A stretch of 64,000 bases of DNA from Burkholderia seminalis DSM 23518 (GTDB taxonomy: Bacteria > Pseudomonadota > Gammaproteobacteria > Burkholderiales > Burkholderiaceae). Under the pieces are notes generated by a model. That model saw only the letters and a list, made by a program, of their open reading frames with translations, did no database searches and had not been told where the DNA came from. Below are positions 7,168 to 31,127 of the stretch, piece after piece; the stretch's first letter is position 1; each line of letters starts with the position of its first letter. Both the position numbers and the translations under genes were made by a program. The stretch is from positions 186,001 through 250,000 of the forward strand of contig NZ_CADFDK010000003.1 in assembly GCF_902832885.1 (NCBI RefSeq), read 5' to 3'.

Positions 7168-7175
7168 GGCGATCC

Positions 7176-9290
7176 TCACGAAGGCGGGTCGAGCGGCACG
7201 GCCGCGACCGCGATCGCGGCCGCATGCGCGGCGACGTCGAGACCGTCGGCCGGCCAGGTGCGCGGGCCGGCGTCGGGCGTGGCCGTATCGACCAGCACGC
7301 GATACTCGAGCACCGGTGCGGGCGGCACGAACACGATCGTCTCGGACGACGCGTTCAGCATCACGAGCAGCGCCTCGGTGCGCCCGGTGCGGCCCGTGCC
7401 GACCCGCCGCATCGTCAGCGCGCGGCGCTCGCGGTCCTGCCACGCGGGGACGGTCAGCGCGTCGCCGTGCTCGTCGAACCAGCCGATCTCGGCCATCCCC
7501 GGCGCGCCGTCGCGATCGCCGGACGGATAGCCCGGCGCCGACATCACCGGGTACATGCGCCGCAGCGCGGCGAGCCGCGACACGAAGCGCATCAGCGTCA
7601 CGGCTTCGTCGCCGCGCGCGAGATCCCAGTCGAGCCACGACAGTTCGTTGTCCTGGCAGTACGCGTTGTTGTTGCCGTGCTGCGTGCGGCCGAATTCGTC
7701 GCCGGCCACCAACATCGGCGTGCCGAGCGCGGTGAACAGCGTCGCGAGCATCGAGCGCGCGACGCGCGAGCGTACCGCGCGAATCGCCGCATCGTCGGTC
7801 GGCCCCTCGACGCCCCAGTTCGCGCTGCAGTTGTCGTCGCGGCCGTCGCGGTTGTCCTCGCCGTTCGCGTCGTTGTGCTTGGCCGAGTACGACACGAGAT
7901 CGGCGAGCGTGAAGCCGTCGTGCGCGGTGACGAAATTGACCGACGCCCACGTATGGCGCCGGTGGTGGTTGAACAGGTCGGCAGAGCCGGCGAGCCGCGC
8001 GGCGAGTTCCGGCCGCTGCCCCGCGTCGCCGCGCCAGAAGCGCCGCACGGTGTCGCGAAAGCGGTCGTTCCATTCGGCGAAGCCGGGCGGGTGGCGGCCG
8101 AGCTGGTAGCCGCCGGGGCCGAGATCCCACGGTTCGGTGATCAGCTTGCGCTGCGAGAGCACCGGGTCCTGCCGCAACGCGTCGAAGAATCCCGCGCCGG
8201 GATCGAAGCCGTGCGCCTCGCGGCCGAGCGTGACACCGAGATCGAAGCGGAAGCCGTCGATGTTGAACGCGGTGGCCCAGTAGCGCAGCGAGTCCATCAC
8301 CATCTGCAGCACGCGCGGATGCGACAGGTTCAGCGTGTTGCCGCAGCCCGTCTCGTCGACATGAAACCGCTGGTCGCCCGGCACGAGCCGGTAGTAGCTC
8401 GCGTTGTCGAGGCCGCGCCACGACAGCGTCGGGCCGAGCTGGTTGCCTTCGGCGGTGTGGTTGTAGACGACGTCGAGCACGACCTCGATGCCGGCCGCAT
8501 GCAACTGGCGGATCGCGATGCGCATCTCGTCGAGCCGCCGCGTCGCGAGATACGCGGGCTCCGGCGCGAAGAACGCGGCCGTGTCGTAGCCCCAGTAGTT
8601 GCGCAGCCCGCGGTTCACGAGCGCGCGCTGCTGCAGGAACGCGTGGATCGGCAGCAGTTCGACCGTCGTCACGCCGATCGACAGCAGATGATCGACGAAC
8701 GCCGGATGCGCGAACGCCGAAAACGTGCCGCGTTCGGGCACGCGCAACCCGGCGCGCCGCATCGACGCGCCGCGCACGTGCGTCTCGTAGATCACGGTGT
8801 TGCGCCATGGCACGCGCGGGCGCCGGTCGGTGCTCCAGTCGAATGCCTCGTCCACCACCACGCATTTCGGCATCGCGGGCGCCGAATCGCGGCGGTCCAG
8901 CGACAGGTCCGCGCGGTTCGAATGCACACGATAGCCGAACAGCGCGTCCGACCAGCGGAACTGGCCGACCAGCTTGCGCGCGTACGGGTCGAGCAGCAGC
9001 TTGGTCGGGTTGAAGCGGTGACCATGCTGCGGCTGGTACGGGCCGTCCGCGCGAAACCCGTACACGGTGCCCGGATGGGCGTTGGGCAGGTAGCCGTGCC
9101 ACACCTCGTCGGTGCATTCGGGCAGGTCGAGGCGCGCGAGTTCCTTGCGGCCGGTCGGATCGAACACGCACAGCTGGATGCGCTGCGCGTGGGCGGAAAA
9201 TACCGCGAAGTTGGTCCCGAGGCCGTCCCAGGTCGCACCGAGCGGATAGGCGCGGCCGGCTTCGAGGCGGGCGGGCAGGGCGGTCGGCAT
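7176..9290 (-). CDS. glgX: Glycogen debranching enzyme (GlgX, isoamylase type)
   Basis: This 704-residue GH13 debranching enzyme hydrolyses alpha-1,6 branches in limit-dextrin-like glucan. It has an N-terminal CBM48 (LGATWDGLGTNFAVFSAHA). The barrel carries VVLDVVYNHTAEGNQLGP, IDGFRFDLGVTLGRE (nucleophile Asp), LITEPWDLGPGGYQLG (acid/base Glu) and FVTAHDGFTLADLVSY. MPTALPARLEAG at 9290 is taken as the start because it opens the conserved N-terminus; upstream in-frame codons are weaker. It sits 32 bp after glgB and 8 bp before treZ. Released linear chains are substrates for TreY and MalQ. Confidence 0.93.
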   Translation of the reverse strand: MPTALPARLEAGRAYPLGATWDGLGTNFAVFSAHAQRIQLCVFDPTGRKELARLDLPECTDEVWHGYLPNAHPGTVYGFRADGPYQPQHGHRFNPTKLLLDPYARKLVGQFRWSDALFGYRVHSNRADLSLDRRDSAPAMPKCVVVDEAFDWSTDRRPRVPWRNTVIYETHVRGASMRRAGLRVPERGTFSAFAHPAFVDHLLSIGVTTVELLPIHAFLQQRALVNRGLRNYWGYDTAAFFAPEPAYLATRRLDEMRIAIRQLHAAGIEVVLDVVYNHTAEGNQLGPTLSWRGLDNASYYRLVPGDQRFHVDETGCGNTLNLSHPRVLQMVMDSLRYWATAFNIDGFRFDLGVTLGREAHGFDPGAGFFDALRQDPVLSQRKLITEPWDLGPGGYQLGRHPPGFAEWNDRFRDTVRRFWRGDAGQRPELAARLAGSADLFNHHRRHTWASVNFVTAHDGFTLADLVSYSAKHNDANGEDNRDGRDDNCSANWGVEGPTDDAAIRAVRSRVARSMLATLFTALGTPMLVAGDEFGRTQHGNNNAYCQDNELSWLDWDLARGDEAVTLMRFVSRLAALRRMYPVMSAPGYPSGDRDGAPGMAEIGWFDEHGDALTVPAWQDRERRALTMRRVGTGRTGRTEALLVMLNASSETIVFVPPAPVLEYRVLVDTATPDAGPRTWPADGLDVAAHAAAIAVAAVPLDPPS

Positions 9291-9322
9291 GGGGCGAATC
9301 TCCGAGTCGAGGGAACGGGAAA

Positions 9323-11526
9323 TCACGCGGGGGTCAGCCACAGCGTCGCGAGCGGCGGCAAGCGCAGGGTCGCGGACCACGCCTCGCCATGGGCGGGCAC
9401 GGCCTCGGCCCACACGGCGCCGTCGTTGCCGGCGTTGGTGCCGCCGTACGGCGCGGCATCGGTGTTCATCAGTTCGCGCCAGTGGCCGGGGGCGGGCAGC
9501 CCGAGGCGGTAGCCGGCGCGCGGCACGGGCGTGAAGTTGCAGACGGCGACCACCAGGTGCCCGGCGTCGTCGCGGCGCGCGAACGCGAACACGCTGTTGT
9601 CGCGGTCGTCGCCGATCAGCCAGGCGAAGCCGGCCGCGTGGCAGTCGAGCGCATGCAGCGCCGGTTCGGCGGCGTAGGTCCGGTTCAGGTCGCGCACGAG
9701 CCGCTGCACGCCGCGATGGGCCGGCGCGTCGAGCAGGTCCCAGTGCGGCGTCGCATCGTGCGCGAACTCCGCCCATTGCGCGAATTCGCTGCCCATGAAC
9801 AGCAGCTTCTTGCCCGGATGCGCCCACATGAAGCCGAAGTACGCGCGCAGCGTCGCGAGCCGCTGCCATGCGTCGCCCGGCATCTTCGCGACGAGCGAGC
9901 CCTTGCCGTGCACGACCTCGTCGTGCGACAGCGGCAGCACGAAGCGCTCCGAGAACGCGTAGACGAGCCCGAACGTCATCCGGTCGTGGCGATGGCGGCG
10001 GTGGATCGGGTCTTCGTGCAGGTACGCGAGCGTGTCGTGCATCCACCCCATGTTCCATTTGAAGTCGAAGCCGAGCCCGCCGTCGCGGGTCGGCGCGGTG
10101 ACGCCCGGCCACGCGGTCGATTCCTCCGCGATGGTGACGACGCCGCCCGGCGCGGCCGCGCCGTGCAGCGTGTCGTTCAACTGGCGCAGGAACGCGACCG
10201 ATTCGAGGTTCTCGCGGCCGCCGTACCGGTTCGGCACCCATTCGCCTTCCTTGCGCGAATAGTCGCGGTACAGCATCGACGCGACCGCGTCGACGCGGAT
10301 GCCGTCGACGTGGTAGCGGCGCGCCCACGCGAGCGCCGACGCGACGAGGAACGCGCCGACTTCGGCACGCCCGACGTTGAACACGCAGGTGTGCCAGTCG
10401 GGATGCAGCCCTTCGCGCGGATCGGCATGCTCGTACAGCGCGCTGCCGTCGAACTGCGCGAGGCCGTGCGGATCGTCCGGGAAGTGCGCGGGCACCCAGT
10501 CGACGATCACGCCGATGCCGGCCGCGTGCGCGCGGTCGACGAACCGCGCGAAGCCGTCGACCGGCCCGAAGCGCGCGGACGGCGCGAACTGCGCGAGCGG
10601 CTGGTAGCCCCACGATCCGCCGAACGGGTATTCGGCGATCGGCATGAATTCGACGTGCGTGAAGCCCATCCCCTGCACGTAAGGAATCAGCCGCTCGGCG
10701 AGCTCGTCCCACGTCGCGCTGCGATTCATCTCCTCGGGCACGCGCTGCCACGACTCCGGATGCACCTCGTAGATCGACCACGGCACGCGGTAGCGGTCGG
10801 CGCGCGGCCGCGCGTGCATCCAGCCGTCGTCGTGCCACGCGAATGCGTCGAGCGCCGCGACGTCGGCGACGACGGACGCCGTGCGCGGCGGCGCTTCGGT
10901 CGCGCGCGCGCACGGATCGGCCTTGTGCGGCAGCACGCGCCCGTCGGCCGCGCGCAGCTCGTACTTGTAGCACTCGCCCGCGCCGATGCCGGGCACGAAC
11001 AGCTCCCACACGCCCGACGGCCGGCGCAGCCGCATCGGATGGCGGCGGCCGTCCCACGCGTTGAAGTCGCCGACCACCGACACACGCTGCGCGTTGGGCG
11101 CCCAGACCGCGAAGCGCACGCCGTCGGTGCCGTCGATCCGTGCGGGCGTCGCGCCGAGGCAGTCGAGCACGGCGGCCGGGTCGCCGGACGAAAGGCGCGC
11201 CAGTGCGGCCTCGTCGAGCAGCGTGCCGAACGCGTACGCGTCGTCGATCACCTGCCGCGCGTCCGGCCAGTCGATCGCGAGCCGGTAATGAGTCGCGCCG
11301 CCGTTGCGTGCGATGGTTCCCGCGAAGCAGCCTGCGCGATCGACGCACGCGAGCGTCGCGAGTTCGTCGCCGTCCGGCGCCAGCGCACGCACGCGTTCGG
11401 CGCCGGGCAGCAGCGCGCGCACGACGGTCCGGCCGGCCTGCCCGTGCGGGCCGAGGCACGCGAACGGATCGGGATGGCGGCCGGCGAGCAGCGCATCGAT
11501 ATCGGTGCGGTCGAACAACGTATCGG

Positions 11527-11530
<4 letters not shown>
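9323..11530 (-). CDS. glgB: 1,4-alpha-glucan branching enzyme (GlgB)
   Basis: This 735-residue GH13 enzyme introduces alpha-1,6 branches into the linear alpha-1,4 glucan made by GlgE. An N-terminal extension (FACLGPHGQ), the type found in GlgB proteins over 700 residues long, is followed by a CBM48 domain ([20 protein letters not shown]). The barrel has [26 protein letters not shown] (nucleophile D414), [12 protein letters not shown] (acid/base E469) and [14 protein letters not shown]. The start [10 protein letters not shown] at 11530 overlaps the treS-mak stop by 4 bases. No glgA or glgC is in the window, which fits polymer synthesis through GlgE. Confidence 0.95.
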
Positions 11531-14939
<3,409 letters not shown>

Positions 14940-14943
<4 letters not shown>

Positions 14944-17900
14944 CCATGGGCTCCCGAGGAGGGGCGGGCGACGTCCGGTGCGGGCGCCGCCGCCCGCGCG
15001 GCGTCCGGCGACGGCGCGAGCCGCCAGATTGCGTAGGGCCGCACGTGCGGATCGAGCGACACGTACTGACGATGCCCGCGCCACGTTTGCGCGTGGGCCG
15101 CATCCTGTTCGAGCGCGTCGAGCGGTTCGCCGTCGACGAGCCCGAAACCGCGCCACAGCGCGGCGTCGAGCGTGAAGTTCGCGGCCTGCGGATGCCACGG
15201 GTCGAGGCTGATCGCGACGACGACCACGCTGTCGAACGCCGGCGTCGCCTTCACGAACACGAGCACGTTGTCGTTGTCCGCCTCGACGAATGCGAGGCCC
15301 AGATGCGTCTGCAGCGCCGGGTGATCGCGCCGCGCACGGTTCAGCCGCGCGATTTCCGTGCCGATGTGCGCGGCCTTGCTCCAGTCGCGCGCGCGCAGTT
15401 CGTACTTCTCGGCGTTCGCGTATTCCTCGCTGTCCGGCAGCGGCGCCGACTCGCCGAGCTCGAAGCCCGAGTACATGCCCCACGAACCGGCCAGCGTCGC
15501 CGCGAGCGCCGCGCGGATCACGAACTGCGCGCGCGGCGCGTTCTGCAGGTGGCGCGGGTTGATGTCGGGCGTGTTGACGAAGAAGTTCGGCCGGAAGAAT
15601 TCGCGCGCGGGGCCGGCCGTCAATTCGGTCAGGTAGTCGATGAAGTCGCGCTTCGATTCGCGCCACGTGAAGTACGTGTACGACTGCGAGAAGCCGATCT
15701 TGGCGAGCCGGTACATCATCCCCGGCCGCGTGAACGCCTCGGACAGGAACACGACGTCCGGATGCCGGCCGCGCACGTCGCCGATCATCCATGCCCAGAA
15801 CGGCAGCGGCTTCGTGTGCGGGTTGTCGACGCGGAAGATCCGCACGCCCGCGTCGACCCAGAACAGCACCGCGTCGCGCAGCGCGAGCCACAGGGCCGGG
15901 AGCGCATCCGGTGCATAGAAGTCGGGGTTCACGATGTCCTGGTAGCGCTTCGGCGGATTCTCCGCGAAGCGCAGCGAACCGTCGGGGCGCCACGCGAACC
16001 AGCCGGGATGCTCGGCGAGCCACGGGTGATCGGGCGAGCACTGGATCGCGAAATCGAGCGCGATCTCGAGCCCGTGGTCGCGCGCGGCATCGACCAGCGC
16101 GCGAAACGACGCGAGCGTGCCGAGGTGCGGATGCACGGCCGTATGGCCGCCGTCGGGCGAGCCGATCGCATACGGGCTGCCGACGTCGTCCGGGCCGGCG
16201 CTCAGGCTATTGTTGCGCCCCTTGCGCGCGGTCGTGCCGATCGGATGGATCGGCGGGAAGTACAGCACGTCGAACCCCATGTCGCGAATGCGCGGCAAGT
16301 GCGCGAGCACGTCGTCGAACGTGCCGTGCCGCCGCGGATCGTCGCTCGCCGAACGCGGAAACATCTCGTACCAGCTCGAAAAGCGTGCCTTGCGGCGTTC
16401 GACGTCGACCGGGTAGGTGGTGTCGTCGTGCGTGGCGAACGGGCGGTAGCGCAGCGCCGCGAATGCGTCGGCGAGCGGCGGCGCGGCGAGCAGCGCGCGT
16501 CGCGCATCGGGCGGCGCGTCCTTGAACTCGGCGACGAGGCGCTCCATCCGCGCGCGGGCGCGCGGGTCGACCGGATCGGCGAGCTTGAGCGCGGTCGAGA
16601 GCAGCAACTGCGCCTCGCGCAGTTCGAGCGTCACGTCCTGGCCGGCCGCGTGCTTCTTGGCGACGTCGTCGACGAGCGACGCCCAGTCGTCGCGCCAGGC
16701 GATCACGCGGAATTCATGCCGGCCGAGCCGGTCGAGCGCGACGCGCGCATGCCAGCGGTCGTTCGGCCCGGCTTCGAACGGGACTTCTCGCCACGCGTCG
16801 TCGCCGTCGGCGCGCCACTGGAGCGCGGCCGCGAGATGCGCGTGACCGTCGGTGAAGATCGACGCATGGACGACGAGCGACTCGCCGATCACGCGCTTGA
16901 CCGCGAAGCGGCCGCCGTCGACCGACGGCTCGACGCGCTCGATCGCGATCCGGTCGGCCGCAAGCGCGGCCGACAACGCTTCGCGCTCGCGCGCGGCATC
17001 GGGGCGCGTCGTGACGGCGGGCGCCGGCCACGCGTGCAGCAACGCGCAGGCGCCGGGTTCGAGCGTCAACGGTGCGAGCGCGGCAGGCGGCTGCGTGTGC
17101 GCGCCCGCCTGCGTGGCGACACGCGTGAAGCCGCCGGGCACGCCGGGCAGGATCGTCGCGGGGTCGACCGTCGCCCGTGCGTCGAGAGCGGGATTCAGCG
17201 CGATCAGCAGCGCCGCGTCGTCGTGTTCGAGCGACGGGCCGGTACCGCGCAGCAGCACCGTCGCGGCCGCGCCGGGCGCGCTTAGTTGCGCGATCTCGCC
17301 GCGGGCCGCCGCGACGGGCGTCGCACGCCGCCACGCGTTCGCATCGGCGATCGCGCCCGACAGGTCGAAACGCCCGTGCTCGAACGCGGCGCGGTAGCGC
17401 CCGGCGTCGGCATCGCGCGCCATCAGCGGCACCGCGACGCCGCGCTCGAAGCCCATCGGCACGAGCCAGCCGGTGCCGACGGCCGCGGCCGTCCACAGCG
17501 CGCGGCGATATGCGCGGGCGACGGTGTCGTCCGGCGCGTCGGGCCAGTCGTCGGCGAGACGCGGGCCGTCCAGCGCGTCAGGGAACGCGATCGGCGAGCC
17601 GATGCGCCGCAGCAGCCGGTGCTCGTCCGCGAACCACGGCGCGTGCAGGTCCCACCAGCGTACCGACGAAAACACCGCGTCGAATCCGGCCGCCTCGAGC
17701 TGCGCGAGCGCGTCGCGCGCATGGCCGGGCACGCCCGCGAGCACCGCGACGTCGGGGCGGGCGCGGCGCAGCGCCGCGCGCCAGCCCGGCCACCAGTCGG
17801 CCGGCAGGTGATGCGGCGCGTCGATCAGGAAGCCGGCCGCGCCCGCATCGGCGAAGTTGGCGAGGTGCGCGCACCACCAGGCGGCCAGCGCGTCGCGTAC

Positions 17901-18332
17901 CGCTTCGTCGCCGCTGTTCGCGTGCGCGATATCGAGCGCATGCGCGGTGCCGCGCGGGTCGATCAGCGCATCGTCGTGCGTGCGCTCGACGTACCAGTCC
18001 GGATGCTCGGCGCGCAGCGGGTTGTCGCGCGCGATGCGGTCCGGCACGACTTCGAGCAGCAGGCGCAGCCCGTGGCCGTGCGCGAGCTGGGCGAGCCGCG
18101 AGAAGGTTTCGAGCGCGCTCGCGCGGGTCGCGAAGGCCTGCGCCGGCCGCCGGTAATCGGCCACGTGGCGCGGAAAGCCCGCGACGCTCGCGGCCCAGAA
18201 CGCGCCGACGAGCACGTGATCGAAACCCATGCCCGCGATATGCGCGAACGTCCGCGACCACGCGTCGAGCGGCCCGACGAGGCGGGCATCGCAGAAATAG
18301 AGGTGCGGAGCAAAAGTCGGCGTGGAGTCCAT
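14940..18332 (-). CDS. glgE: Maltose-1-phosphate maltosyltransferase (GlgE) with an extra N-terminal amylase-like domain
   Basis: GlgE extends alpha-1,4-glucan with maltosyl units from alpha-maltose-1-phosphate. The C-terminal part of about 670 residues is canonical: an N-terminal beta domain ([20 protein letters not shown]), [32 protein letters not shown] (nucleophile D836) and [13 protein letters not shown] (acid/base E865). The D-to-E spacing of 29 equals that of Streptomyces GlgE. At 1130 residues it is about 450 longer than actinobacterial GlgE. The extra N-terminal half resembles a GH13 barrel ([45 protein letters not shown]) without obvious intact catalytic motifs. The start [10 protein letters not shown] at 18332 opens the operon; its promoter should lie in 18333-18486. 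Confidence 0.92.
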
Positions 18333-18486
18333 GGCGTGGCGCGGGGCGGGTGGCGGCAGTCGATGACGCTGGTGCCTCGCAACGCGCGTGCCTGCCCCGC
18401 GGTTTCCCCGCGGGCAAGGCGCGTGCGCGACGCCGGCCGGGGCCGGGACTGTCGTTTTTACATGACTGCCGGGCACGCGCATGCAG
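18333..18486. other. Intergenic region upstream of the glgE operon
   Basis: 154 bp separate the glgE start from the stop of the small gene upstream. The region holds a GC-rich imperfect hairpin (18393-18416, TGCCCCGCGG/CCCGCGGGCA). A second inverted repeat, GCGCATG (18477-18483) and CATGCGC (18490-18496), flanks the stop codon of the upstream gene. Either could end the upstream operon. I see no confident -35/-10 pair for glgE. Confidence 0.4.
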
Positions 18487-18975
18487 TTACATGCGCGGGA
18501 TCGAGCGGATATCGGTGCTGTTGCCGCTGCCGCGATCGTCATCCGCGGCGGGCAGCGGCACGCCCGGGTCATAGCGCACCACGGCACCGTGTTCGATGCG
18601 ATGCGCGAACGGCGGCGGCGCATCGACGTCGTCGCCGAAGCGTGCGCGCACGAACGCGCGCAGCAGCGCCACGCGCGCGTCGCGGCCGTGCGCGCCGCAG
18701 GTCGACGGCCCGTCGACAAAGGTTGCGTCGCATTCCACGTCGTCGCCGTGGCGGGCGATCCGCAGGTCGTCGACGCGATCGAGCACCGTGCCCGCGTCGG
18801 CCCACGAGGTCGACGGCGCGAACGGCGCGTCGAGGTGCCGGAACGCGTCGCAGGCGGCCGTCACGACGACGGTCGGCGCGACGGCCGTGAAGCGCAGGGT
18901 GTCTTCGTCGTCCGCGCACAGCGCGCGGGCGCACCAGTAATCGAGATCCTTGCCGTCGAGGGCGTCGGTTTGCAT
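18487..18975 (-). CDS. Small phage-type protein (DUF2591-like)
   Basis: This 162-residue protein of unknown function has an N-terminal ALDGKDLDYWCARAL, which resembles the LTGxxLDYWVA signature of small bacteriophage proteins grouped as DUF2591; that match is from memory. The rest is acidic, with no membrane segment or catalytic motif that I recognise. The start MQTDALDG at 18975 is 28 bp after the stop of the EEP-family gene, so it may be the last gene of that operon. A hairpin straddles its stop codon. It may be an old phage-derived gene. Coding status is well supported by codon use and composition; role unknown. Confidence 0.7.
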   Translation of the reverse strand: MQTDALDGKDLDYWCARALCADDEDTLRFTAVAPTVVVTAACDAFRHLDAPFAPSTSWADAGTVLDRVDDLRIARHGDDVECDATFVDGPSTCGAHGRDARVALLRAFVRARFGDDVDAPPPFAHRIEHGAVVRYDPGVPLPAADDDRGSGNSTDIRSIPRM

Positions 18976-22319: not shown

Positions 22320-23011
22320 GCGAAGCTCCTTGGCACGTTGTCGGGTTGGCAGGTTCGTACGCAGGCGATGTTCCGCAGCGTCTCGCAGATCGCGGCAAAT
22401 TCCGGTCCGCTCGTACGCGAGAAGGAGACGGAAATGTCGTCGGTGTCGGGATCGTCGTCCGACTGCTGGACGATGAACCGCTTCACGCGCACGCGGCCGG
22501 GGCCGAGCGCCTCGTGCAGCGTGCCGAGCGTGAGGCCGCCGCGCTCGGCCACGAGCTGCAGCGTGCGCTGCTGGCGCTGCGCGATGAAGCGGCGTTCGAG
22601 CGGCTTCACGCCCGCGAGGATCGCGAGCACGATCGCCGTCGCGCCGATCGACGCCAGGTACATGCCACCGCCCGTGGCAAGGCCGACGCCGGCCACGGCC
22701 CACAGGCTTGCCGCCGTCGTCAGTCCGCGCACGACTTCGCCGCGCAGCAGGATCGATCCGGCGCCGAGAAAGCCGATGCCCGACACCACCTGCGCGGCGA
22801 CCCGGGACGGATCGAGCACGACGCCGTTTTGCCCGCGCACGTCCTCGAAGCCGAAGGTCGACACCAGCATCACGAGCGCGGCGCCCACGCACACGAGCAT
22901 GTGTGTGCGCAGCCCGGCGGCCCAGTTCAGGCGCTCGCGTTCGAGGCCGATGACGCTGCCGAGCAGCGCCGCGAGCAGCAGTCGTCCGAGCAGTTCGAGG
23001 TGGCCGATCAT
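22316..23011 (-). CDS. MgtC/SapB family membrane protein
   Basis: This 231-residue protein has the MgtC core: LLLAALLGSVIGLERER, AGLRTHMLVCVGAALVML, RVAAQVVSGIGFLGAGSI and VRGLTTAASLWAVAGVGLATG. Four to five membrane helices are followed by a soluble C-terminal ACT-like domain of about 85 residues. MgtC relatives act in low-magnesium survival, intramacrophage growth and control of the F-ATPase. The start MIGHLELLG at 23011 has GGAAGGAG upstream. It is the first gene of the PLD/EEP operon. No magnesium-sensing leader was recognised. Confidence 0.88.
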   Translation of the reverse strand: MIGHLELLGRLLLAALLGSVIGLERERLNWAAGLRTHMLVCVGAALVMLVSTFGFEDVRGQNGVVLDPSRVAAQVVSGIGFLGAGSILLRGEVVRGLTTAASLWAVAGVGLATGGGMYLASIGATAIVLAILAGVKPLERRFIAQRQQRTLQLVAERGGLTLGTLHEALGPGRVRVKRFIVQQSDDDPDTDDISVSFSRTSGPEFAAICETLRNIACVRTCQPDNVPRSFA

Positions 23012-23187
23012 GATGTGCGCTCCTTCCGGCCGGCGCGAGGCGGTTCGCCGGCGATTCGATGGACGAAAGGGACGCAAGCCGCGTGCCGGGCGGGCACGGC
23101 GCGTGCGCGCAAGGCCGCCGGCGTGCGCGGCGGTCATGCTGCGCGCATTTTTTGCACTGGTATCGCAGATAAGGACAGGAGGCCACC
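23012..23187. promoter_or_regulatory. Divergent promoter region between the mgtC-like gene and the 80-residue gene
   Basis: 176 bp separate the two divergently transcribed starts and must hold promoters for both. The right part (about 23145-23182) is less GC-rich and ends in AGGAGG (23177-23182) just before the GTG start. I could not define convincing -35/-10 pairs. Confidence 0.4.
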
Positions 23188-23430
23188 GTGCAACATCAAC
23201 AGGATGCACAGGTCCGCGACCCGTATCGCGGTCACGAGATCCTCGTGTGGGCGCGGCGCGATGAAAGCGGCGCGTGGCGCGACGAGGTGCAGGTCTATGT
23301 CGACGGCGCCCGCATCGAGATGGTCGTGCCGGCACCGGGCGGCCCCGAGTGGCTGACCGAACTTGAGGCGCTGCGCGCGGGCGTCGAGCGCGGACGTTAC
23401 CTGATCGACAAGCGCGTGGACGACGACTGA
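23188..23430 (+). CDS. Small hypothetical protein
   Basis: This 80-residue, mostly acidic protein starts at GTG 23188 with a near-perfect AGGAGG five bases upstream. The sequence contains YRGHEILVWARRDESGAW and ends in KRVDDD; it has no Cys, no membrane segment and no motif that I recognise. It looks like a small single-domain beta-rich protein. It lies 74 bp before the sdhB-like gene and may be cotranscribed. The strong ribosome-binding site makes it likely real. Confidence 0.65.
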   Translation: MQHQQDAQVRDPYRGHEILVWARRDESGAWRDEVQVYVDGARIEMVVPAPGGPEWLTELEALRAGVERGRYLIDKRVDDD

Positions 23431-23504
23431 CCGGCATCGCACTGGCGGGCCGCATGCGGCGACGGCGCGCCGTTACCGCATGCGGCCCGCATCTGGAGGC
23501 ATTG

Positions 23505-24212
23505 ATGAGCGACCCCCGCACCCTTCATATCTATCGCTACGACCCCGATCGCGACGCGCGGCCGTACATGCAGCGCTACGAGATCGACGTGAACCCGGAC
23601 GACCGCATGCTGCTCGACGTACTCGGCCGCGTGAAGCGCGACGACGAGACGCTGTCGTACCGGCGTTCGTGCCGTGAAGGCATCTGCGGGTCGGATGCGA
23701 TGAACATCAACGGCCGCAACGGGCTCGCGTGCCTGGCGAACATGCAGACGCTGCCGCGCGACATCGTGCTGCGGCCGCTGCCGGGGCTGCCGGTGGTGCG
23801 CGACCTGATCGTCGACATGACCGATTTCTTCAACCAGTACCACTCGATCCGGCCATACCTGATCAACGACATGCCGCCGCCGGCGCGCGAACGCCTGCAA
23901 TCGCCGCAGGAGCGCGACCAGCTGGACGGGCTGTACGAATGCATCCTGTGCGCGTGCTGCTCGACCGCCTGCCCGAGTTACTGGTGGAATCCGGACAAGT
24001 TCGTCGGCCCGGCGGGGCTGCTGCAGGCGTACCGCTTCATCGCGGATTCGCGCGACCTCGGGACGGCCGGGCGGCTCGACGACCTCGAGGATCCGTACCG
24101 GCTGTTCCGGTGCCGGACGATCATGAACTGCACGGACGTGTGCCCGAAAGGGCTGAATCCGACCCCGGCGATTTCGGAGATCCGGACGATGCTGGTCAGG
24201 CGGACGGTGTGA
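23505..24212 (+). CDS. Succinate dehydrogenase/fumarate reductase iron-sulfur subunit paralogue
   Basis: This 235-residue protein has the three cluster sites of SdhB/FrdB. The 2Fe-2S site is SCREGICGSDAMNINGRNGLAC, a [4Fe-4S] site is CILCACCSTACPSYWW, and the [3Fe-4S]/C-terminal site is CRTIMNCTDVCPKG. The normal role is electron transfer from the flavoprotein to the quinone in complex II. The start MSDPRTLHIY at 23505 follows CTGGAGG; an upstream in-frame start lacks a ribosome-binding site. No sdhA, sdhC or sdhD is adjacent, so this is a solitary copy. It may serve another oxidoreductase or be an extra isoform; which one cannot be told here. Confidence 0.88.
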   Translation: MSDPRTLHIYRYDPDRDARPYMQRYEIDVNPDDRMLLDVLGRVKRDDETLSYRRSCREGICGSDAMNINGRNGLACLANMQTLPRDIVLRPLPGLPVVRDLIVDMTDFFNQYHSIRPYLINDMPPPARERLQSPQERDQLDGLYECILCACCSTACPSYWWNPDKFVGPAGLLQAYRFIADSRDLGTAGRLDDLEDPYRLFRCRTIMNCTDVCPKGLNPTPAISEIRTMLVRRTV

Positions 24213-24214
24213 CG

Positions 24215-24241
24215 CAGGCACCCCGAGGCCGTCGGCGCCTG
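24215..24241. terminator. Hairpin between convergent sdhB-like and Rieske genes
   Basis: CAGGC (24215-24219) pairs with GCCTG (24237-24241), and inside it CCGA (24223-24226) pairs with TCGG (24232-24235). It fills the gap between two convergent stop codons and could terminate both strands. There is no T-run. Confidence 0.45.
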
Positions 24242-25264
24242 TTATTTCCCGGCGAACGCGTCGGCATGCGCGGCGCGATGCCGGGCTTCGGTTCGATCGC
24301 TGCCCGGATAGAACTGCCGCGCCCATCGCTGAAACACCGGGTACGGCCCGTCGCCCGCGCCCGGCGTACCGTAGCCCGTGTAGTCGCGATTGCTCCACAC
24401 CATGATGTCTTCCTTGAACACCGGCACGAGCCACAGTCGGTGCAGCAACCGGCCGAGCGCGGCGTAGACGACGCGCTGCAGCGGGGCCGGCCACCTCGAC
24501 AGCCACGAAAAGCGGAACGAGATGCCGTCCCGGAAGGTCCAGCGCAGCGGCGCGATCTGCACGCCGCACGCGAAGATCTTCGCTTCGAGGCCGATCGCCT
24601 TCATTTCATGGTCGGACGACACGCACCCGAGGCCGTGCACGCCGATCAGCGTGCTCCATCTGATGTTCTTCCACGCCATGTCCACCTGCATCGAAATACG
24701 CGGGCCGTCGATCACCGGGGCATGCGGTTTCATGTCCTTCCAGCGATGCAGCGCGCCGAAATGCTCGAGGTCGTAGCCGTTTTCCGGCAGGTTCTGCATC
24801 ACGCCGCGCAGCGTGAATGCCTGGCCGACCGGCGCCGAGAAGCCGGTCATGTCCACGTCGGGCAGTTCCCAGGTCGGCGCCAGGCCGTCGGCGTTCTGCC
24901 ACACGAATACGAAGCCGTTCCATTCGCGCACGTGCCGGGTGCGAAGCGTCAGCCCTTGGGTGCCGTGCGGGCAGCGGGCGGTGGCGCGCCGGCCGTCGGG
25001 GCCGTATGCGTAGTGATGGAACGGGCAGACGATCTGCTCGCCGTCGACCGTGCCGCCGTGGCCGAGATGCGCGCCCTGGTGCGGGCAATACGCGTCGACC
25101 GCGCAGGCGACGCCCGATGCGGTCCGGTACAGCACGACATCGCGTCCCATGAACGGCGTCGTGAGCACGCTGCCGCGCTTCAGCTCGCGGCTGAAACACA
25201 GTGCGAACCATCCGTCCGGATAGGGCAGCGGCGCGGTCTCGTCGGCGGGGCCGGTTGCATTCAT
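24242..25264 (-). CDS. Rieske non-heme iron oxygenase, terpene cluster copy 2
   Basis: This 340-residue oxygenase has an N-terminal Rieske domain binding 2Fe-2S through CPHQGAHLGHGG and CPFHH. The catalytic domain carries NGYDLEHFGALH, the D-x2-H-x4-H mononuclear iron ligands. It should hydroxylate, desaturate or demethylate a substrate using electrons from an unidentified reductase. The start at MNATGPADE (25264) is chosen for its CAGGAG at ideal spacing; an ATG at 25294 overlaps the upstream stop and is an alternative. It is the last gene of the terpene operon and a clear paralogue of the gene before it. No ferredoxin or reductase gene is nearby. A product-tailoring role is inferred from context. 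Confidence 0.85.
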   Translation of the reverse strand: MNATGPADETAPLPYPDGWFALCFSRELKRGSVLTTPFMGRDVVLYRTASGVACAVDAYCPHQGAHLGHGGTVDGEQIVCPFHHYAYGPDGRRATARCPHGTQGLTLRTRHVREWNGFVFVWQNADGLAPTWELPDVDMTGFSAPVGQAFTLRGVMQNLPENGYDLEHFGALHRWKDMKPHAPVIDGPRISMQVDMAWKNIRWSTLIGVHGLGCVSSDHEMKAIGLEAKIFACGVQIAPLRWTFRDGISFRFSWLSRWPAPLQRVVYAALGRLLHRLWLVPVFKEDIMVWSNRDYTGYGTPGAGDGPYPVFQRWARQFYPGSDRTEARHRAAHADAFAGK

Positions 25265-25290
25265 CGCGTGCTCCTGCGTCGGCTTGGCGC

Positions 25291-26343
25291 TCATCGCGAG
25301 AATGCCCGATCGACGTAGGCGACGGCTGCCGGCCCGGCGCCGTCCTGCCCGTCGGGCGCATCGCCGCCGGGCGCCGGATAGAACTGCGCGGCCCAGCGCC
25401 GGAACGTCATGATCGGCATCTCGCCGGCCATCAGCGTCGGGCGCGCGTCGTAGTCGCGGTGATGCCAGATGCGCAGGTCGCGCTTGAACTGGGGCACGAA
25501 CCACCACCGGTAAGCGGCGCTCGCGAGTACCTCGTGCAGGGCCCGGCGCAGCGGCGACGGCCACGCCGACGCGCGTTCGACGCGCAGTGCCACGAATTCA
25601 CGGCACGTCCAGCGATCGGGTTCGATCTGCGTCGGGAACAGCACGACCCGCGCATGCAGCCCGAGGTCCGGCAGTTCCATGCGCGCGGCCATGCAGCCCA
25701 GGCCGTGCATCGTGATATCCAGCAACAGCCGTTGCCCGAGCAGCACGAGCGTCGAGCGCATCGTCATCCGGTGGCCGTCGGCTTGCGGCGGCTCCAGCAC
25801 CGGATTCGACCAGCCGTGCACCGGACTGAAATGGTTGACGTCGACGCCGTTCTCGGCCGGATTCTGCAAATTGCCGTTCAGGGTGTGGCACGCGCCGCGC
25901 GGCCGCGAATAACCATCGAGGTCGAGGTCGGGCAGCGACCACGACGGCGGTGCGCCCGCACGGTCCTGCCATGCGAGCACGAGGCCGTTCCATTCGCGCA
26001 CGTGGCGGTGCCGCAGCGTGGCGGCGGGCGGCTTGCCGTCCTGCCCGGCGCGCACGCAGGTGCCGTCCGGCGCGAACGCGAGGTGATGGAACGGGCACAC
26101 GATCTCCTCGCCGCGCACGACGCCGCCGTGCCCGAGATGCGCGCCGAGGTGCGGGCAATGCGGCGCGACCGCGCGAATCAGGCCGGATGCCGTTCGATAA
26201 AGCACGACGTCCTCGCCCATGAAACGCGTGACGACGAGCGCGCCGGGTCTGACGTCGCGGCCGTAGGCCAGCGCGAACCAGCCGTCCGGATAGCGATGTC
26301 GCGAGGCGGCGGGCGCGGACACGGGAGGGATCGATGCGTGCAT
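25291..26343 (-). CDS. Rieske non-heme iron oxygenase, terpene cluster copy 1
   Basis: This 350-residue protein has CPHLGAHLGHGG and CPFHHLAFAPDG (Rieske 2Fe-2S) and NGVDVNHFSPVH (D-x2-H-x4-H mononuclear iron site). It shares the opening YPDGWFAL and much of its length with the downstream copy, so the pair arose by duplication. Its architecture is that of single-component-alpha oxygenases acting on large hydrophobic substrates (cholesterol 7-desaturase/KshA-like), a comparison from memory. The start MHASIPP is 12 bp after the terpene synthase stop. It probably oxidises the terpene made by the two upstream enzymes, or the product of its paralogue. Confidence 0.86.
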   Translation of the reverse strand: MHASIPPVSAPAASRHRYPDGWFALAYGRDVRPGALVVTRFMGEDVVLYRTASGLIRAVAPHCPHLGAHLGHGGVVRGEEIVCPFHHLAFAPDGTCVRAGQDGKPPAATLRHRHVREWNGLVLAWQDRAGAPPSWSLPDLDLDGYSRPRGACHTLNGNLQNPAENGVDVNHFSPVHGWSNPVLEPPQADGHRMTMRSTLVLLGQRLLLDITMHGLGCMAARMELPDLGLHARVVLFPTQIEPDRWTCREFVALRVERASAWPSPLRRALHEVLASAAYRWWFVPQFKRDLRIWHHRDYDARPTLMAGEMPIMTFRRWAAQFYPAPGGDAPDGQDGAGPAAVAYVDRAFSR

Positions 26344-26355
26344 GCGCGTCTCCGG

Positions 26356-27438
26356 TCACCGGTGCGAATCGTGCCGCTCCGCCGCCGCGATTTCCTCGAG
26401 CGTCGGCAGCGCCGTCATCGCGACTTCGCCGCCGGCGAAGCGCCCGCCGCCGAGATCGTCGCCGTGGTAGCGGGTGCTGAACGCGTGGAATTCCGCGTTG
26501 CCGGCGCTCATGTAGCCCAGTTCCGTCACGTACGCCTGCGTGTCGGCGTCGCCTGCCAGCTCGCCCGTCGCGATCGCGTCGCGCGCGTCCATCAGGCGGC
26601 GCTCGTTCGAGGTGCACAGCGCGGCCAGCCGGTCGAGCGCCGCCTGGACGTCCAGTTGCTCGACGCGCATCAGGATCCACACGGCATTGAATCGCTCGTG
26701 CGCGGACCACTCCTTGCGAAACGAAAACAGGTCGTTGACGAGGATCACCGAATCGATCGCCGCGTCGCGCGCATCGGCCAGTGCCGGGTGTTTCGCGAGG
26801 CGCTCGCCCATGTCGATGTCGAGCGCGTATTCGGTGAGCAGGGTGATCCAGTGCCCGAATCCCTCGACCCGGCGAAACGCCAGATAATCGGCGAGCGACA
26901 GGCGCGACGCGTCGGTCGCCGTCGGATTGGCCTGGGTGCGGATCTGGTCGCGGATGCATTCGACGAACCGCTGCCAGAAGTCCGGGCGCGCGTCGCCCGC
27001 GGTGCGCATCAGGCGCAGCGTGTCGTGCAGCAGTCGCGCGGAAGGCGCGTCGGCCGGCGGCAGCTTGCCGTCGACGGCCGCGAGGAAATGCTCGCGCAAC
27101 GTGTCGAGCCCCGCCTGATCGCCGGTGCGCGCGAGATGCGTGAACGCGTCGTCCATCAGCGTCGTGACGTGCATCATGCGGTGGATCGTGTACACGCGAT
27201 CGGGCCGCGCATTCGGGTAACACAGGCTGCCATAGGCGGGAATGCGCTGCGCGAGAAAACGGCGCGCCGCTGCCTCGCTGCGATAGTGCTGCAGGATGGT
27301 CGGGTAGTCGTCGATCGCGAGCTGCCGCTCGATCGCTTCATGCCGCTGGTGCCGTGCGACGGGCAGCGACAGACGCGGCAGCGGCAGCACCAGCGTCTGC
27401 GTGGCGCTCGCGATGCGTGGCGTTTGGGAGGCGTGCAT
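26356..27438 (-). CDS. Class I terpene synthase
   Basis: This 360-residue terpene cyclase keeps most class I landmarks. The first acidic motif is DDAFT (D96, D97). R189, exactly 46 residues before N235, fits the pyrophosphate sensor. The NSE triad NDLFSFRKE gives N235, S239 and E243, and the RY pair is R323-Y324. It would ionise a prenyl diphosphate in the cytoplasm and cyclise it. The first motif lacks the usual third acidic residue. The start at 27438 is 13 bp after the methyltransferase stop. With that neighbour, the likely substrate is a C-methylated (C16) diphosphate, as for sodorifen synthase, rather than plain FPP; this is inference. Confidence 0.85.
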   Translation of the reverse strand: MHASQTPRIASATQTLVLPLPRLSLPVARHQRHEAIERQLAIDDYPTILQHYRSEAAARRFLAQRIPAYGSLCYPNARPDRVYTIHRMMHVTTLMDDAFTHLARTGDQAGLDTLREHFLAAVDGKLPPADAPSARLLHDTLRLMRTAGDARPDFWQRFVECIRDQIRTQANPTATDASRLSLADYLAFRRVEGFGHWITLLTEYALDIDMGERLAKHPALADARDAAIDSVILVNDLFSFRKEWSAHERFNAVWILMRVEQLDVQAALDRLAALCTSNERRLMDARDAIATGELAGDADTQAYVTELGYMSAGNAEFHAFSTRYHGDDLGGGRFAGGEVAMTALPTLEEIAAAERHDSHR

Positions 27439-27451
27439 GCGAGTCTCCCGG

Positions 27452-28414
27452 TCATGCGTCCGGCTTGACCGCGACGACGCTGTAGGTCGACACCTTGTTC
27501 TTGATCAGCGCGACGGACCAGTTTTCGGCGAGCACGCGCAGTTCTTCCAGCGTGTCCGGCGCATGGTGCGGAAAATGGCGATCGATGTTGGCCTTGGCGT
27601 CCATCAGCCAGCGCGCGACGTCGATGTTCGACGGCAGCACGCGCATGTCGCGGATGGCGAACCCGGCGTCGACCAGCACCTGCCTGAAATAATCGGGCGT
27701 CTTGCGGTGTTTGCACGCGATCCGGTCGATCTCGTCCGGCGTGTCGGACTGATATTCGCTCAGATCGACGTTGTACAGATTATCCGAGATGACCACCGAT
27801 CCGCCGGGGCGCACGCGGGCATGCAGCGCGCGCATCGCCTTTTCGTACAGTGCGTTCGGGAAATGCGAGATCACGCCGCGAATGATCACGAGATCGTACG
27901 GCGTCGCGGGATCGGGCAGTCGATCGACGTCCTGGGCGTTGCACTGATAGAGGTTGATGCGGCCCGCGAGCCCGTGCTGCGCATGAAAACGTGCGCAGTA
28001 GTCGAGCTGCTCGCGACTGACGTTGACCCCGTCGAGACACAGGCAGTCGGGGAAGCGGCCGGCCAGATACTTGAGGATGTAGCCCCAGCCGCAGCCGATG
28101 TCGAGAATGCGCTCGACGCGCGCGGGAGCCGGGGCGTCGAAGCCCGCGAGGTGAAGCTGGCGTTCGAAGTAGCGCATGCCCGATTCGTCGAGCGAGATCG
28201 GCGGCGTGGAGCGGGGATCGTCGTAAACACCGAACTGGAACAGCAGGTACTCGCCGATCGCCTTGCGCCAGTCGTCCGGACTGCCGGCATAGGTCGTCTG
28301 CACTTTCCGTTCGTAATCGTTCACCGTCTCGCCATGCAGCACGCGGATAGGCAGCGCGCGCTCCAGGTGGGGCGCGCGCAGTTCGGCGCTCGCCCGTTCG
28401 CTGAGCTGATTCAT
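27452..28414 (-). CDS. SAM-dependent C-methyltransferase, probably acting on a prenyl diphosphate (SodC/GPPMT-like)
   Basis: This 320-residue class I methyltransferase has motif [18 protein letters not shown] (D105-G111), post-[12 protein letters not shown], motif [15 protein letters not shown] and motif [14 protein letters not shown]. The preceding block [13 protein letters not shown] and the length fit the C-methyltransferases that act on GPP or FPP. The start MNQLSERAS at 28414 has GAGGA at good spacing; a longer frame to a TTG at 28459 has no ribosome-binding site. It is the first gene of the operon, immediately before a terpene synthase. SodC of Serratia both methylates and cyclises FPP, and this protein may do the same. 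The substrate is inferred from context. Confidence 0.82.
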
Positions 28415-29037
28415 CGAAATCCTCGCGTCGTCTATTGCCGAAAAAACCGGACGAAACAATGCCTGCCGATTGAGCGGCAGCGCAGGTCTTCACGAGACGT
28501 CGGCACGAAAATGCGCCCGCCGATACGTGAGATCGAATAAATCGATGTAATGCTTCTGTCGAAGCGTTATGAAGGTGAAAGATCCGTGCGCATTTAAAGG
28601 TCCCCGGATAAATGGCGGAAAGGGTGCAGAGACGAAGCATCGCAACCCCGGCCCCATACCATGTGCGGGCCTTCTGGCATTGCGGGATCGCGCCGGCCAG
28701 CCGGTTCGGCGCGGTATGTCGCTTGCGTTTTCACGATTCCGATACTGCGATTGTGAAACGGAAGCGAAGTGTATTCGTTATATGAGAGGCAATTCGTTTT
28801 TTCAAGAATCTTCCAGCCTGTTTTAAAAACACCGGGAAAGCAGGCGCTAATTAAAATATTGAAATCGCAATGGTCAACGGCGATTGCGATTATTTCGATT
28901 CGATGAATCGAAGCCGGGCGCCGCGCCGCGAACGATCGCGCACGCGGCCGCCTGGCCGGACGAGGCCGGCCGCATGACGTCAGGCTCGACGGGAACGCGC
29001 GCTCGCGCCGAACGAGCCGGGCGCGGTGAACGGGCGC
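28415..29037. promoter_or_regulatory. Long, relatively AT-rich leader/promoter region of the terpene operon
   Basis: 623 bp without a convincing gene separate the methyltransferase start from the end of the HAD gene. The region is strikingly AT-rich for this genome, especially 28740-28900. It contains ATCGA-ATAAA-TCGAT (28532-28546), followed at once by GCTTC-TGTC-GAAGC (28552-28565), about 120-150 bp upstream of the methyltransferase start. These inverted repeats could be operator or leader structures. An 85-codon plus-strand frame at 28569-28826 has no coding character. No luxR-type (cep) box was recognised. Confidence 0.5.
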
Positions 29038-29712
29038 CTACGGCCGCGCGGCAATCTCGTCGAGATGCCACAGCAGGTCGGCCGGGTCGTCGTACACGCG
29101 CAGCGCGCCGGCGCGCTCCAGTTCGTCGCTGCCGTAGCCGCCCGACAGCAGCCCGACGCCGAGCGCGCGGCAGCGGGCGGCGGCCAGCATGTCCCAGATG
29201 CTGTCGCCGACCACGACGGTGTGCTCGATCGGCACGTTCAACTGCGCGGCGGCAGTCAGGAACAGGTCCGGGTCCGGCTTCGCATACTTGACCTGATCGC
29301 GCGTGACGACCACCTGCTTCGCCGGATCGACGCCGAGCGCCTCGAGATTGATGGCGGCCGTTTCCATCCGTCCGCTGGTGGCGATCGCCCAGCGGATGCC
29401 CGCGCCGGACAGCGCGGCCAGCAGTTCGCGCGCGCCCGGCAGCGGACGCACCTGCGCGCGCAGCCGCTGGTAGGCGGCCGCATGCAGCCGCGCGAGCCGT
29501 TCGACACGCTCGGCGTCGATGTCGCCCGCCGTCTCGCGCAGCAGCTGGTTCAGGAACAGGCCGCCGCTCATCCCGATCTTGCGGTGGATGCGCCATACCG
29601 ACAGCTCGATGCCCTCCGCGTCGAGCGCTTCCTTCCACGCGAGCACGTGCTGATAGACGCTGTCGACGAGCGTGCCGTCGAGATCGAACAGAAACGACGT
29701 TTCAATGCGCAT
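29038..29712 (-). CDS. HAD-family phosphatase (phosphoglycolate/beta-phosphoglucomutase-like)
   Basis: This 224-residue HAD hydrolase has motif I FLFDLDGTLVDS, an alpha-helical cap (residues about 15-85), motif II AIATSGR, and motifs III/IV KPDPDLFL and VVVGDSIWDMLAA. It dephosphorylates a small metabolite such as a sugar phosphate or phosphoglycolate; the substrate is not evident. The start MRIETSFL at 29712 has CAGGAG six bases upstream. It lies on the terpene operon strand but 620 bp upstream, so cotranscription is doubtful. It is divergent from sotB, with 230 bp between. Confidence 0.85.
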   Translation of the reverse strand: MRIETSFLFDLDGTLVDSVYQHVLAWKEALDAEGIELSVWRIHRKIGMSGGLFLNQLLRETAGDIDAERVERLARLHAAAYQRLRAQVRPLPGARELLAALSGAGIRWAIATSGRMETAAINLEALGVDPAKQVVVTRDQVKYAKPDPDLFLTAAAQLNVPIEHTVVVGDSIWDMLAAARCRALGVGLLSGGYGSDELERAGALRVYDDPADLLWHLDEIAARP

Positions 29713-29942
29713 GTGAATCTCCTGGTCCGGTGACAGGCGGGCGAAGCGTCCGCGGGAATCGTGGTCGATGGAGACATTATCGGCGCATGGCCGTGTCGTC
29801 GCCATGTCCGGCCGCCGGTACGGCGACGTGTCAGGCGCCGCTGGTACAATCGCCCGATGCGCCGGGCCGGGCCTTCTGTGCCGCTTTCCGCGCCGCGCCC
29901 GTGCCGTACACACCCCCAACCCTCGTCTCGTCGATTCCACGC

Positions 29943-31127
29943 ATGGCAACACCGGACGCCATCAGTTCCAGGCACTCGTGGTGGGGCGTACTGGCCCTGT
30001 CACTCACCGCCTTCATTTTCAACACCACCGAATTCGTGCCGGTCGCGCTGCTCAGCGCGATCGGCGACAGCCTGCAGATGCAGCCGACCGCCGTCGGCCT
30101 GATGCTGACGATCTACGCATGGGCGGTGGCCGTCGTGTCGCTGCCGCTGACCTTCGTCACGCGTCACGTCGAACGGCGCAAGCTGCTGGTCGGCGCGTTG
30201 CTGGTGTTCATCGGCAGCCACATCGTGACCGGCGTCGCATGGAATTTCACGGTGCTGATGATCGGCCGGCTCGGCATCGCGTGCGCGCATGCGGTGTTCT
30301 GGTCGATTTCCGTCCCGCTGGCGGTGCGGCTCGCGCCGAGCGACCGCAAAAGCCGCGCGCTGAGCCTGATCGCGATGGGCTCGGCGATCGCGATGGTCGC
30401 CGGCATTCCGCTCGGCCGCGTGATCGGCGAGGCGTTCGGCTGGCGCGTCACGTTCCTGATCATCGCGGGCGCCGCGGCCGGCGCGGCGCTGGTGTTGCGC
30501 GCCACGTTGCCGGTCCTGCCGAGCCAGGGCGCCGGCTCGCTGAGCAGCATCGGCGTGTTCCTGCGCAAGCCGGCCCTGGTGGCGCTCTACGCGATTACCG
30601 TCCTGGTCGTGTCCGCGCATTTCACGTCGTACACGTACATCGAGCCGTTCGTCCAGAGCGTGAACCACGCGAGCAGCAGCCGGATCACCTACGTGCTGAT
30701 CCTGTTCGGCATCGCCGGCCTGCCGGCCGCGCTCTGCTTCAATCGCGCGTACCCGCGCGATCCCGACCGGTTTCTGCTGACGTCGATCGTCGCGTTGTCG
30801 GGTTGCCTGCTGGTCCTGTTCCCGTGCGCGCTGAACATCGTCACGCTGTCCGTGCATACGCTGGTGTGGGGCGGCGCGATCGTCTGCTTCGGCCTCGCGA
30901 TGCAGGCGTGGGTGCTGAAGCTGGCGCCGGACGCGACCGACCTCGCGGTGTCGATCTACTCCGGGCTGTACAACGTGGGCATCGGCGCGGGTGCACTGCT
31001 CGGCAACCATATCGCCGGGGACTACGGGCTGCCGTGGATCGGCACGTTTGGCGGCGTGGTCGGCGCGTTCGCGGTCGGGATCGCGTGGCTCGCGTTGCGG
31101 CTTCATGCGCGGCAGGCAGTGGCTTAG
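29943..31127 (+). CDS. sotB: MFS sugar/drug efflux transporter (SotB-like)
   Basis: This 394-residue, 12-helix major facilitator matches SotB closely from the start: FIFNTTEFVPVALLSAIGD, TIYAWAVAVVSLPLTFVTRHVERRKLL (loop 2-3) and the end motif DATDLAVSIYSGLYNVGIGAGALLGN. SotB exports sugars and related compounds (arabinose, IPTG) by proton antiport across the inner membrane. The start MATPDAISS at 29943 is used because it precedes the first helix; longer frames are hydrophilic and unlike the family. It is monocistronic and convergent with the GAF-Fis regulator. Which compound it exports here is unknown. Confidence 0.88.
   Translation: MATPDAISSRHSWWGVLALSLTAFIFNTTEFVPVALLSAIGDSLQMQPTAVGLMLTIYAWAVAVVSLPLTFVTRHVERRKLLVGALLVFIGSHIVTGVAWNFTVLMIGRLGIACAHAVFWSISVPLAVRLAPSDRKSRALSLIAMGSAIAMVAGIPLGRVIGEAFGWRVTFLIIAGAAAGAALVLRATLPVLPSQGAGSLSSIGVFLRKPALVALYAITVLVVSAHFTSYTYIEPFVQSVNHASSSRITYVLILFGIAGLPAALCFNRAYPRDPDRFLLTSIVALSGCLLVLFPCALNIVTLSVHTLVWGGAIVCFGLAMQAWVLKLAPDATDLAVSIYSGLYNVGIGAGALLGNHIAGDYGLPWIGTFGGVVGAFAVGIAWLALRLHARQAVA

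Follow-up and report, generated by a model that had tools for sequence, protein, structure and literature searches.

The sod-like gene clusters are known from genome comparison. Duell et al. (2019) described 28 such clusters and assigned them to eight groups according to their oxidoreductases, additional methyltransferases or additional terpene synthases. These include the clusters of Burkholderia pyrrocinia and Burkholderia singularis, and Rieske proteins are named in those of Serratia sp. FS14, Pseudomonas chlororaphis and B. pyrrocinia (PMC6366047). A 2023 review repeats these findings (PMC10491745). Statements on published systems refer, here and below, to the accessible text of the papers cited. 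The present analysis concerns an operon of this kind in a window of 64,000 nucleotides from Burkholderia seminalis DSM 23518 (contig NZ_CADFDK010000003.1, positions 186,001 to 250,000), the window being the whole stretch of DNA that was analysed. The operon encodes a methyltransferase (MT), a terpene synthase (TS) and two Rieske oxygenases (R1 and R2). It is quite likely a sod-type homoterpene operon, in which MT and TS would build a C16 terpene and R1 and R2 would oxidise the C16 skeleton. Since the 2019 report already covers sod-like clusters with Rieske proteins, the cluster type is known and the locus is an added member. Of most interest are the terpene-linked Rieske subfamily and the forecast of an oxygenated C16 end product.

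The MT family of the operon is shared with other described pathways, namely the Greek-philosopher C16 clusters (PMC12723460) and the chlororaphen and grimophan C17 clusters of Pseudomonadota. The C17 clusters proceed via gamma-presodorifen pyrophosphate (gamma-PSPP) and contain at least two MTs (PMC13022886), whereas the operon has a single one. The words 'Rieske', 'oxygenase' and 'dioxygenase' have 0 occurrences in the main text of the same paper. The homoterpene products named in the accessible literature are hydrocarbons, together with alcohols and a diol that, in Streptomyces, are made by the synthase itself (PMC12929941). No oxidised product of a sod-like cluster is described in the open-licence literature searched; subscription papers may report the locus or its product.

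The comparison with sodABCD of Serratia plymuthica (locus L037; L and G numbers denote loci and genomes) gives likeness and difference. In both, a SodC-type MT adjoins a class I terpene synthase, and the two MTs are 64% identical. On the other hand, the insert that holds the operon has no room for sodA (IDI) or sodB (DXS), TS is 23% identical and lies outside the SodD clade, and the two Rieske oxygenases are extra, hence the full sod-type gene set is absent. The genes pgrAB, the equivalent of sodA and sodB, are dispensable in E. coli (PMC13022886) and the published sod-like clusters vary in content (PMC6366047); the operon is therefore filed as sod-like only. The B. pyrrocinia cluster resembles the operon in its SodC-type MT, its TS and the Rieske protein named in it, but among the clusters reported there it alone is given as lacking sodCD synteny (PMC6366047), unlike the operon with its neighbouring MT and TS. 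For B. singularis TSV85 three terpene cyclase genes are reported (PMC6366047), against one TS in the operon, while the locus of B. singularis LMG 28154 (L009) has the same MT-TS-R1-R2 order. A Variovorax locus (L032) combines a TS of the same clade with Rieske oxygenases.

The four genes are co-directional on the minus strand and span 28414-24242, with intergenic gaps of 13 bp (MT-TS), 12 bp (TS-R1) and 26 bp (R1-R2). An alternative ATG of R2 at 25294 would give a 4-bp overlap with R1. The third-position guanine plus cytosine (GC) content of the four frames is 0.83-0.88, typical of real high-GC genes. Chance open reading frames (ORFs) are ruled out for the operon by codon periodicity and conservation, and the long antisense ORF at 25201-27468 on the plus strand was rejected, as its GC peak falls in the wrong codon position. 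The coordinates given in the earlier sequence-only reading are exact. Its description of four same-strand genes with gaps of 12 to 26 bp agrees with the coordinates, the Pfam domains and the codon periodicity, and that of two paralogous oxygenases with the Rieske and KshA_C domains in both and with their identity of 43-46%. The same gene order is present in Burkholderia sp. MS389, B. anthina, G026, Burkholderia sp. TSV86 and B. singularis, so the arrangement is not due to chance. Together with an upstream region of about 0.6 kb, the four genes make up an insert of about 4.8 kb.

MT (28414-27452, minus strand, 320 amino acids) carries the Pfam domains Methyltransf_25/23. Its best PDB matches are 9sls (E 2.3e-169), 9sm0 (2.7e-168) and 24uw (2.3e-129), the last entitled 'FPP-methyltransferase VbFPPMT', where FPP is farnesyl pyrophosphate. 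Six chains of this type (9sls, 9sm0, 24ux, 24uw, 9sm1 and 9sm3) match with E values between 2.3e-169 and 4.6e-87; behind them the values fall off to 5.9e-8 for the following chain and 3.3e-3 for UbiG. Among open-licence papers, the codes 9SLS, 9SM0, 9SM1 and 9SM3 led only to unrelated ones. A UbiG/ubiquinone-type or O-methyltransferase was rejected, with 33 bits for the UbiG model of NCBIfam against a cut-off of 103 and up to 565.6 bits for the FPP-methyltransferase-family chains. A 2-methylisoborneol-type pathway, which uses geranyl pyrophosphate (GPP), was also rejected: no such model is among the NCBIfam matches listed (25 of 26 for MT, 9 for TS).

The 64% identity with the S. plymuthica enzyme was obtained by tblastn, and 208 of the 315 aligned residues are identical. 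Fourteen active-site residues of SodC are mutation-tested: Y39, E42, H45, W46, F56, Y61, H191, N219, D237, L239, C241, D272, E297 and W306 (PMC7862628). MT keeps 11 of these, including the Y39/H191 dyad and W306, and the changes are E42 to S, H45 to D and L239 to I. The positions of E42 and H45 vary widely across the 47 MT rows examined. The same S and D occur in the MTs of Pseudomonas fluorescens (L012 and L013) and of Pseudomonas lini (L015); a P. lini MT is listed among the characterised homoterpene pathways (PMC12723460). These two differences are therefore no strong argument against MT function. By its close full-length similarity to SodC and VbFPPMT, MT belongs to the SodC-type FPP C-methyltransferases/cyclases, and its function is predicted accordingly from sequence.

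The pyrophosphate that MT would release may be alpha- or gamma-PSPP. The site equivalent to W306 is W in MT and SodC; in the two-MT loci L029, L031, L032 and L057, the first MT has V or L there. The first MT of another two-MT locus, L007, has W, which contradicts a simple rule, and L is found in the MTs of L030, L033-L035 and L058-L060, whose synthases share the clade of TS. With these exceptions, alpha-PSPP rather than gamma-PSPP is only a guess. The MT tree was made by a quick method only.

Two side observations concern the same enzyme families. In L007 (Burkholderia territorii LMG 28158), an unbroken frame of 677 amino acids at 9016-11049 contains a TS domain (94-283) and, after it, an MT domain of a second type (462-563); this natural fusion of TS and MT has a separate SodC-type MT as its neighbour. 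In ten Photorhabdus species (L017-L023 and L025-L027), a SodC-type MT with F or L in place of W306 is present, and tblastn found no TS in the fetched flanks. There, the sole target of the TS queries was the MT itself, reached through the fused L007 query, and the oxygenase query gave three 49-residue matches at E 1.7e-4 or worse. The Photorhabdus enzyme is a candidate orphan or re-purposed methyltransferase; the neighbouring ORFs in L017 resemble rpoD and dnaG, judged by eye.

TS (27438-26356, minus strand, 360 amino acids) is a class I terpene synthase with a Terpene_syn_C_2 match at 1.6e-27. All three motif regions of the class are present, with DDAFT at 96, NDLFSFRKE at 235 and RY at 323. 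A tree built by a quick method only covers 40 of the 41 TS ORFs of the MT loci (L032:3530-4597 was omitted). In it, TS sits in a clade of 16 rows (Shimodaira-Hasegawa-like approximate likelihood ratio test, SH-aLRT, 99) apart from the clade of the S. plymuthica synthase. The motif D-D/E-x-x-T replaces DDxxD in all 16 members; the loss of the third acid is therefore a trait of the clade and not a lesion. The S. plymuthica synthase was missed by a single-sequence search with TS at E 1e-5 and recovered by an iterated profile, and 79 of the 348 aligned residues are identical (23%). Membership in the SodD clade was rejected on this identity, on the separate deep clade and on DDAFT in place of a motif of the DDEFCDEG type. 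The C16 skeleton that TS would make is not predictable from sequence, and no product is assignable from the accessible papers.

R1 (26343-25291, minus strand, 350 amino acids; Rieske 8e-16, KshA_C 2e-19) and R2 (25264-24242, minus strand, 340 amino acids; Rieske 2.2e-17, KshA_C 2.5e-8) are paralogous KshA_C-type Rieske non-haem iron oxygenases. The motif CPH-X17-CPFH starts at residue 63 in R1 and 60 in R2, N-x2-D-x2-H-x4-H follows from 165 and 162, and the Asp is at 289 and 286, respectively. The ligands of the 2Fe-2S cluster and of the mononuclear iron (2-His-1-Asp) are thus intact, and they are invariant across 22 aligned sequences including R1 and R2. Each of the two falls in its own clade of six species (100/100 support), hence the pair predates the split of the six and is no recent duplication. 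The nearest PDB structures of both are 3-ketosteroid 9-alpha-hydroxylase oxygenases, with 4qdf as the top match. The architecture of Rieske plus KshA_C is common to KshA, R1 and R2, but KshA is distant (E 1.7e-20 and 4.2e-16, the best stretch limited to the N-terminal half) and R1 and R2 lie in a terpene operon.

The link between such oxygenases and terpene synthases was followed through 43 MT loci, 35 of them from a genome collection, 7 from further Burkholderia genomes and one from the window. Because similarity to the MT of the operon was the criterion of collection, they are not a random sample. A TS is present in 33, the remaining ten all being Photorhabdus; the 33 include L039, counted despite a weak MT match (47% over part of the sequence) below the MT profile limit of E 1e-40. 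Of the 33, 18 have at least one related oxygenase in the flanks that were fetched, which extend to about 8-9 kb at most; these 18 come from six genera: Burkholderia, Achromobacter, Pseudomonas, Serratia, Collimonas and Variovorax. Two or more oxygenases are present in 12 of these 18 loci, one of the 12 being cut by the locus end.

The search in the reverse direction gives the same association. R1 has 19 matches above 200 bits in 65 Burkholderia genomes, followed by one of 139.7 bits, an oxygenase piece in L095. All 19 have a TS within 8 kb, and 16 are also near an MT. The other three, in L094 and L095, adjoin a TS, and the 18 kb fetched there include no MT. The control was a set of ten loci, each with 14-18 kb around a weaker oxygenase and each from a different further Burkholderia genome; at E 1e-3 neither a TS nor an MT was found in any of them. 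Among 399 genomes of the order, in a search that scored at most five candidates per genome, two carry the oxygenase subfamily at E 1e-75, the source genome and G202 (Achromobacter L011, a sod-like locus). In the oxygenase tree, the split between 33 TS-linked rows and 16 unlinked ones, the latter representing 13 different sequences, has support 100/100. Oxygenase fragments from L030 and L032 were excluded from the trees. Together these data place R1 and R2 in a Rieske subfamily tied by genome context to terpene synthases, which is a new result of the present analysis.

The MT-free loci are built alike: a tandem Rieske pair adjoins a TS at L094:6778-10107 (G041) and at L095:7828-11028 (G026), and the first L095 oxygenase is in pieces. 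This suggests the same tailoring module acting on a non-methylated terpene.

In the pathway that we infer, with the substrate and product of each enzyme, the order of the steps and the redox partner, MT would transfer a methyl group from S-adenosylmethionine onto FPP and cyclise it to a presodorifen-type pyrophosphate (C16). Subsequently, TS, from a clade other than that of SodD, would ionise this pyrophosphate and cyclise it to a C16 skeleton. R1 and R2 would then oxidise the skeleton, by hydroxylation or otherwise, with electrons from a reductase encoded outside the operon; attack at two sites or a two-step oxidation is probable. The predicted product is an oxygenated C16 homoterpenoid, and the operon is a real, sod-like homoterpene operon that probably works. 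The sequence-only reading had proposed a C16 homoterpene operon with the same enzyme pair as SodC and SodD. So far as sequences can decide, its methyltransferase is indeed SodC-type and not O- or ubiquinone-type (PDB ranking, 64% identity, SodC residues), and tailoring by the Rieske oxygenases stays the best reading. The likeness of the pair to SodC/SodD fails at TS, which is no SodD orthologue (23% identity, another deep clade). As a cluster type the operon is not new.

Several findings weigh against a C16 pathway that ends in oxidation. MT has I at the position of SodC L239, and the L239A variant of SodC shows lower activity and new products (PMC7862628). TS is far from SodD, and we infer its use of PSPP solely from gene linkage. 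By its Pfam domains, the insert encodes no reductase. No such oxygenase lies in the fetched flanks of 15 of the 33 MT+TS loci, so oxidation is no general need of these pathways. The split of the oxygenase tree falls to 84/61 when L063 is included. This long partial oxygenase from the source genome, the only one of its weak oxygenase loci L063-L068 to reach the score and span limits, was in the first tree and left out of the second.

On balance we lean, by a small measure, towards a broader proposal, in which the Rieske subfamily of the six genera would be a dedicated tailoring module for presodorifen-derived homoterpenes and the operon would lead to doubly oxidised C16 homoterpenoids, while in the MT-free clusters this module would act on terpenes that carry no added methyl group. 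We know of no compound class of doubly oxidised C16 homoterpenoids. If the whole subfamily does oxidise homoterpene skeletons, genome mining that stops at MT and TS yields intermediates and not the natural end products.

Other roles of the oxygenases have to be weighed. R1 and R2 may have the pyrophosphate intermediate as their substrate, or catalyse a desaturation or rearrangement in place of a hydroxylation, and the end product of a C16 pathway may then be oxygen-free. The oxygenase genes located between MT and TS in L012, L024, L038 and L055 fit this view, as does the coexistence of loci with (18/33) and without (15/33) oxygenases. We nevertheless consider it unlikely: the gene order in the operon does not set the order of reactions, and the closest solved relatives, the 3-ketosteroid 9-alpha-hydroxylase oxygenases, hydroxylate a finished polycyclic ring system. 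A start of terpene breakdown or detoxification, in place of biosynthesis, appears still harder to accept. In steroid degraders, oxygenases of the KshA type serve catabolism (PMC4064121), but the four genes and the upstream region fill the insert and leave little space for more catabolic genes. Moreover, R1 and R2 stand behind MT and TS at 12- and 26-bp gaps, and their relatives track TS genes in other genera. Very improbable is an oxidised C15 sesquiterpenoid, with TS taking plain FPP and MT serving another product. In its favour stand the tandem pairs of the same oxygenase subfamily in L094 and L095, loci of two Burkholderia genomes that have a TS next to the pair but lack an MT in the 18 kb fetched. 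Against it, each of the remaining 15 TS-clade members lies near a SodC-type MT, a count biased by the collection of loci through MT.

The site of the operon is a reused one, and the insertion there is clean. The operon occupies 24211-29033, between the convergent genes sdhB (ending at 24212) and a HAD-phosphatase (ending at 29038). In all four unoccupied sites aligned, homology stops at 24205-24210 and restarts at 29033-29034. The sdhB and HAD genes are neighbours in 13 of the 65 Burkholderia genomes. Four of these carry the operon in between (G000, G026, G037 and G039), six have 9-22 bp between the match ends (G012, G020, G038, G042, G054 and G060) and two have 292 bp (G063 and G064). In G041 the 3.3 kb site (L088:2589-4874, contig C3) holds an alpha-galactosidase gene in place of the operon, from which the reuse of the site follows. 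Related operons are found elsewhere in the genomes of G038, G042 and G060, and 12 of the 65 have an MT match at E 1e-80. No tandem repeat was detected in 23000-30000. The HAD phosphatase and the MFS transporter beyond it were rejected as operon members, both being outside the insertion.

The AT-richer region upstream of MT (28415-29037, minus strand) probably holds the promoter and operator of the operon, judging from its GC content and its conservation. GC is 0.55 at 28500-28999, against 0.60-0.75 for every other 500-base segment between 20000 and 33000, and in an alignment of four Burkholderia species 60-column stretches reach up to 87% invariant columns. A promoter scan found no sigma-70 consensus in this region, and terminator-like sites were near chance level. 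An inverted repeat at 28894-28912, between the HAD gene and the operon, has 8-bp arms and a 3-base loop (TTCGATTC-GAT-GAATCGAA). It is retained in the four aligned species, with one arm base different in L005, and is a candidate operator or terminator.

Elsewhere in the window, at 294-18719 on the minus strand, alpha-amylase, GlgB and GlgE domain matches form an apparent glycogen/maltosyl group unrelated to the operon.

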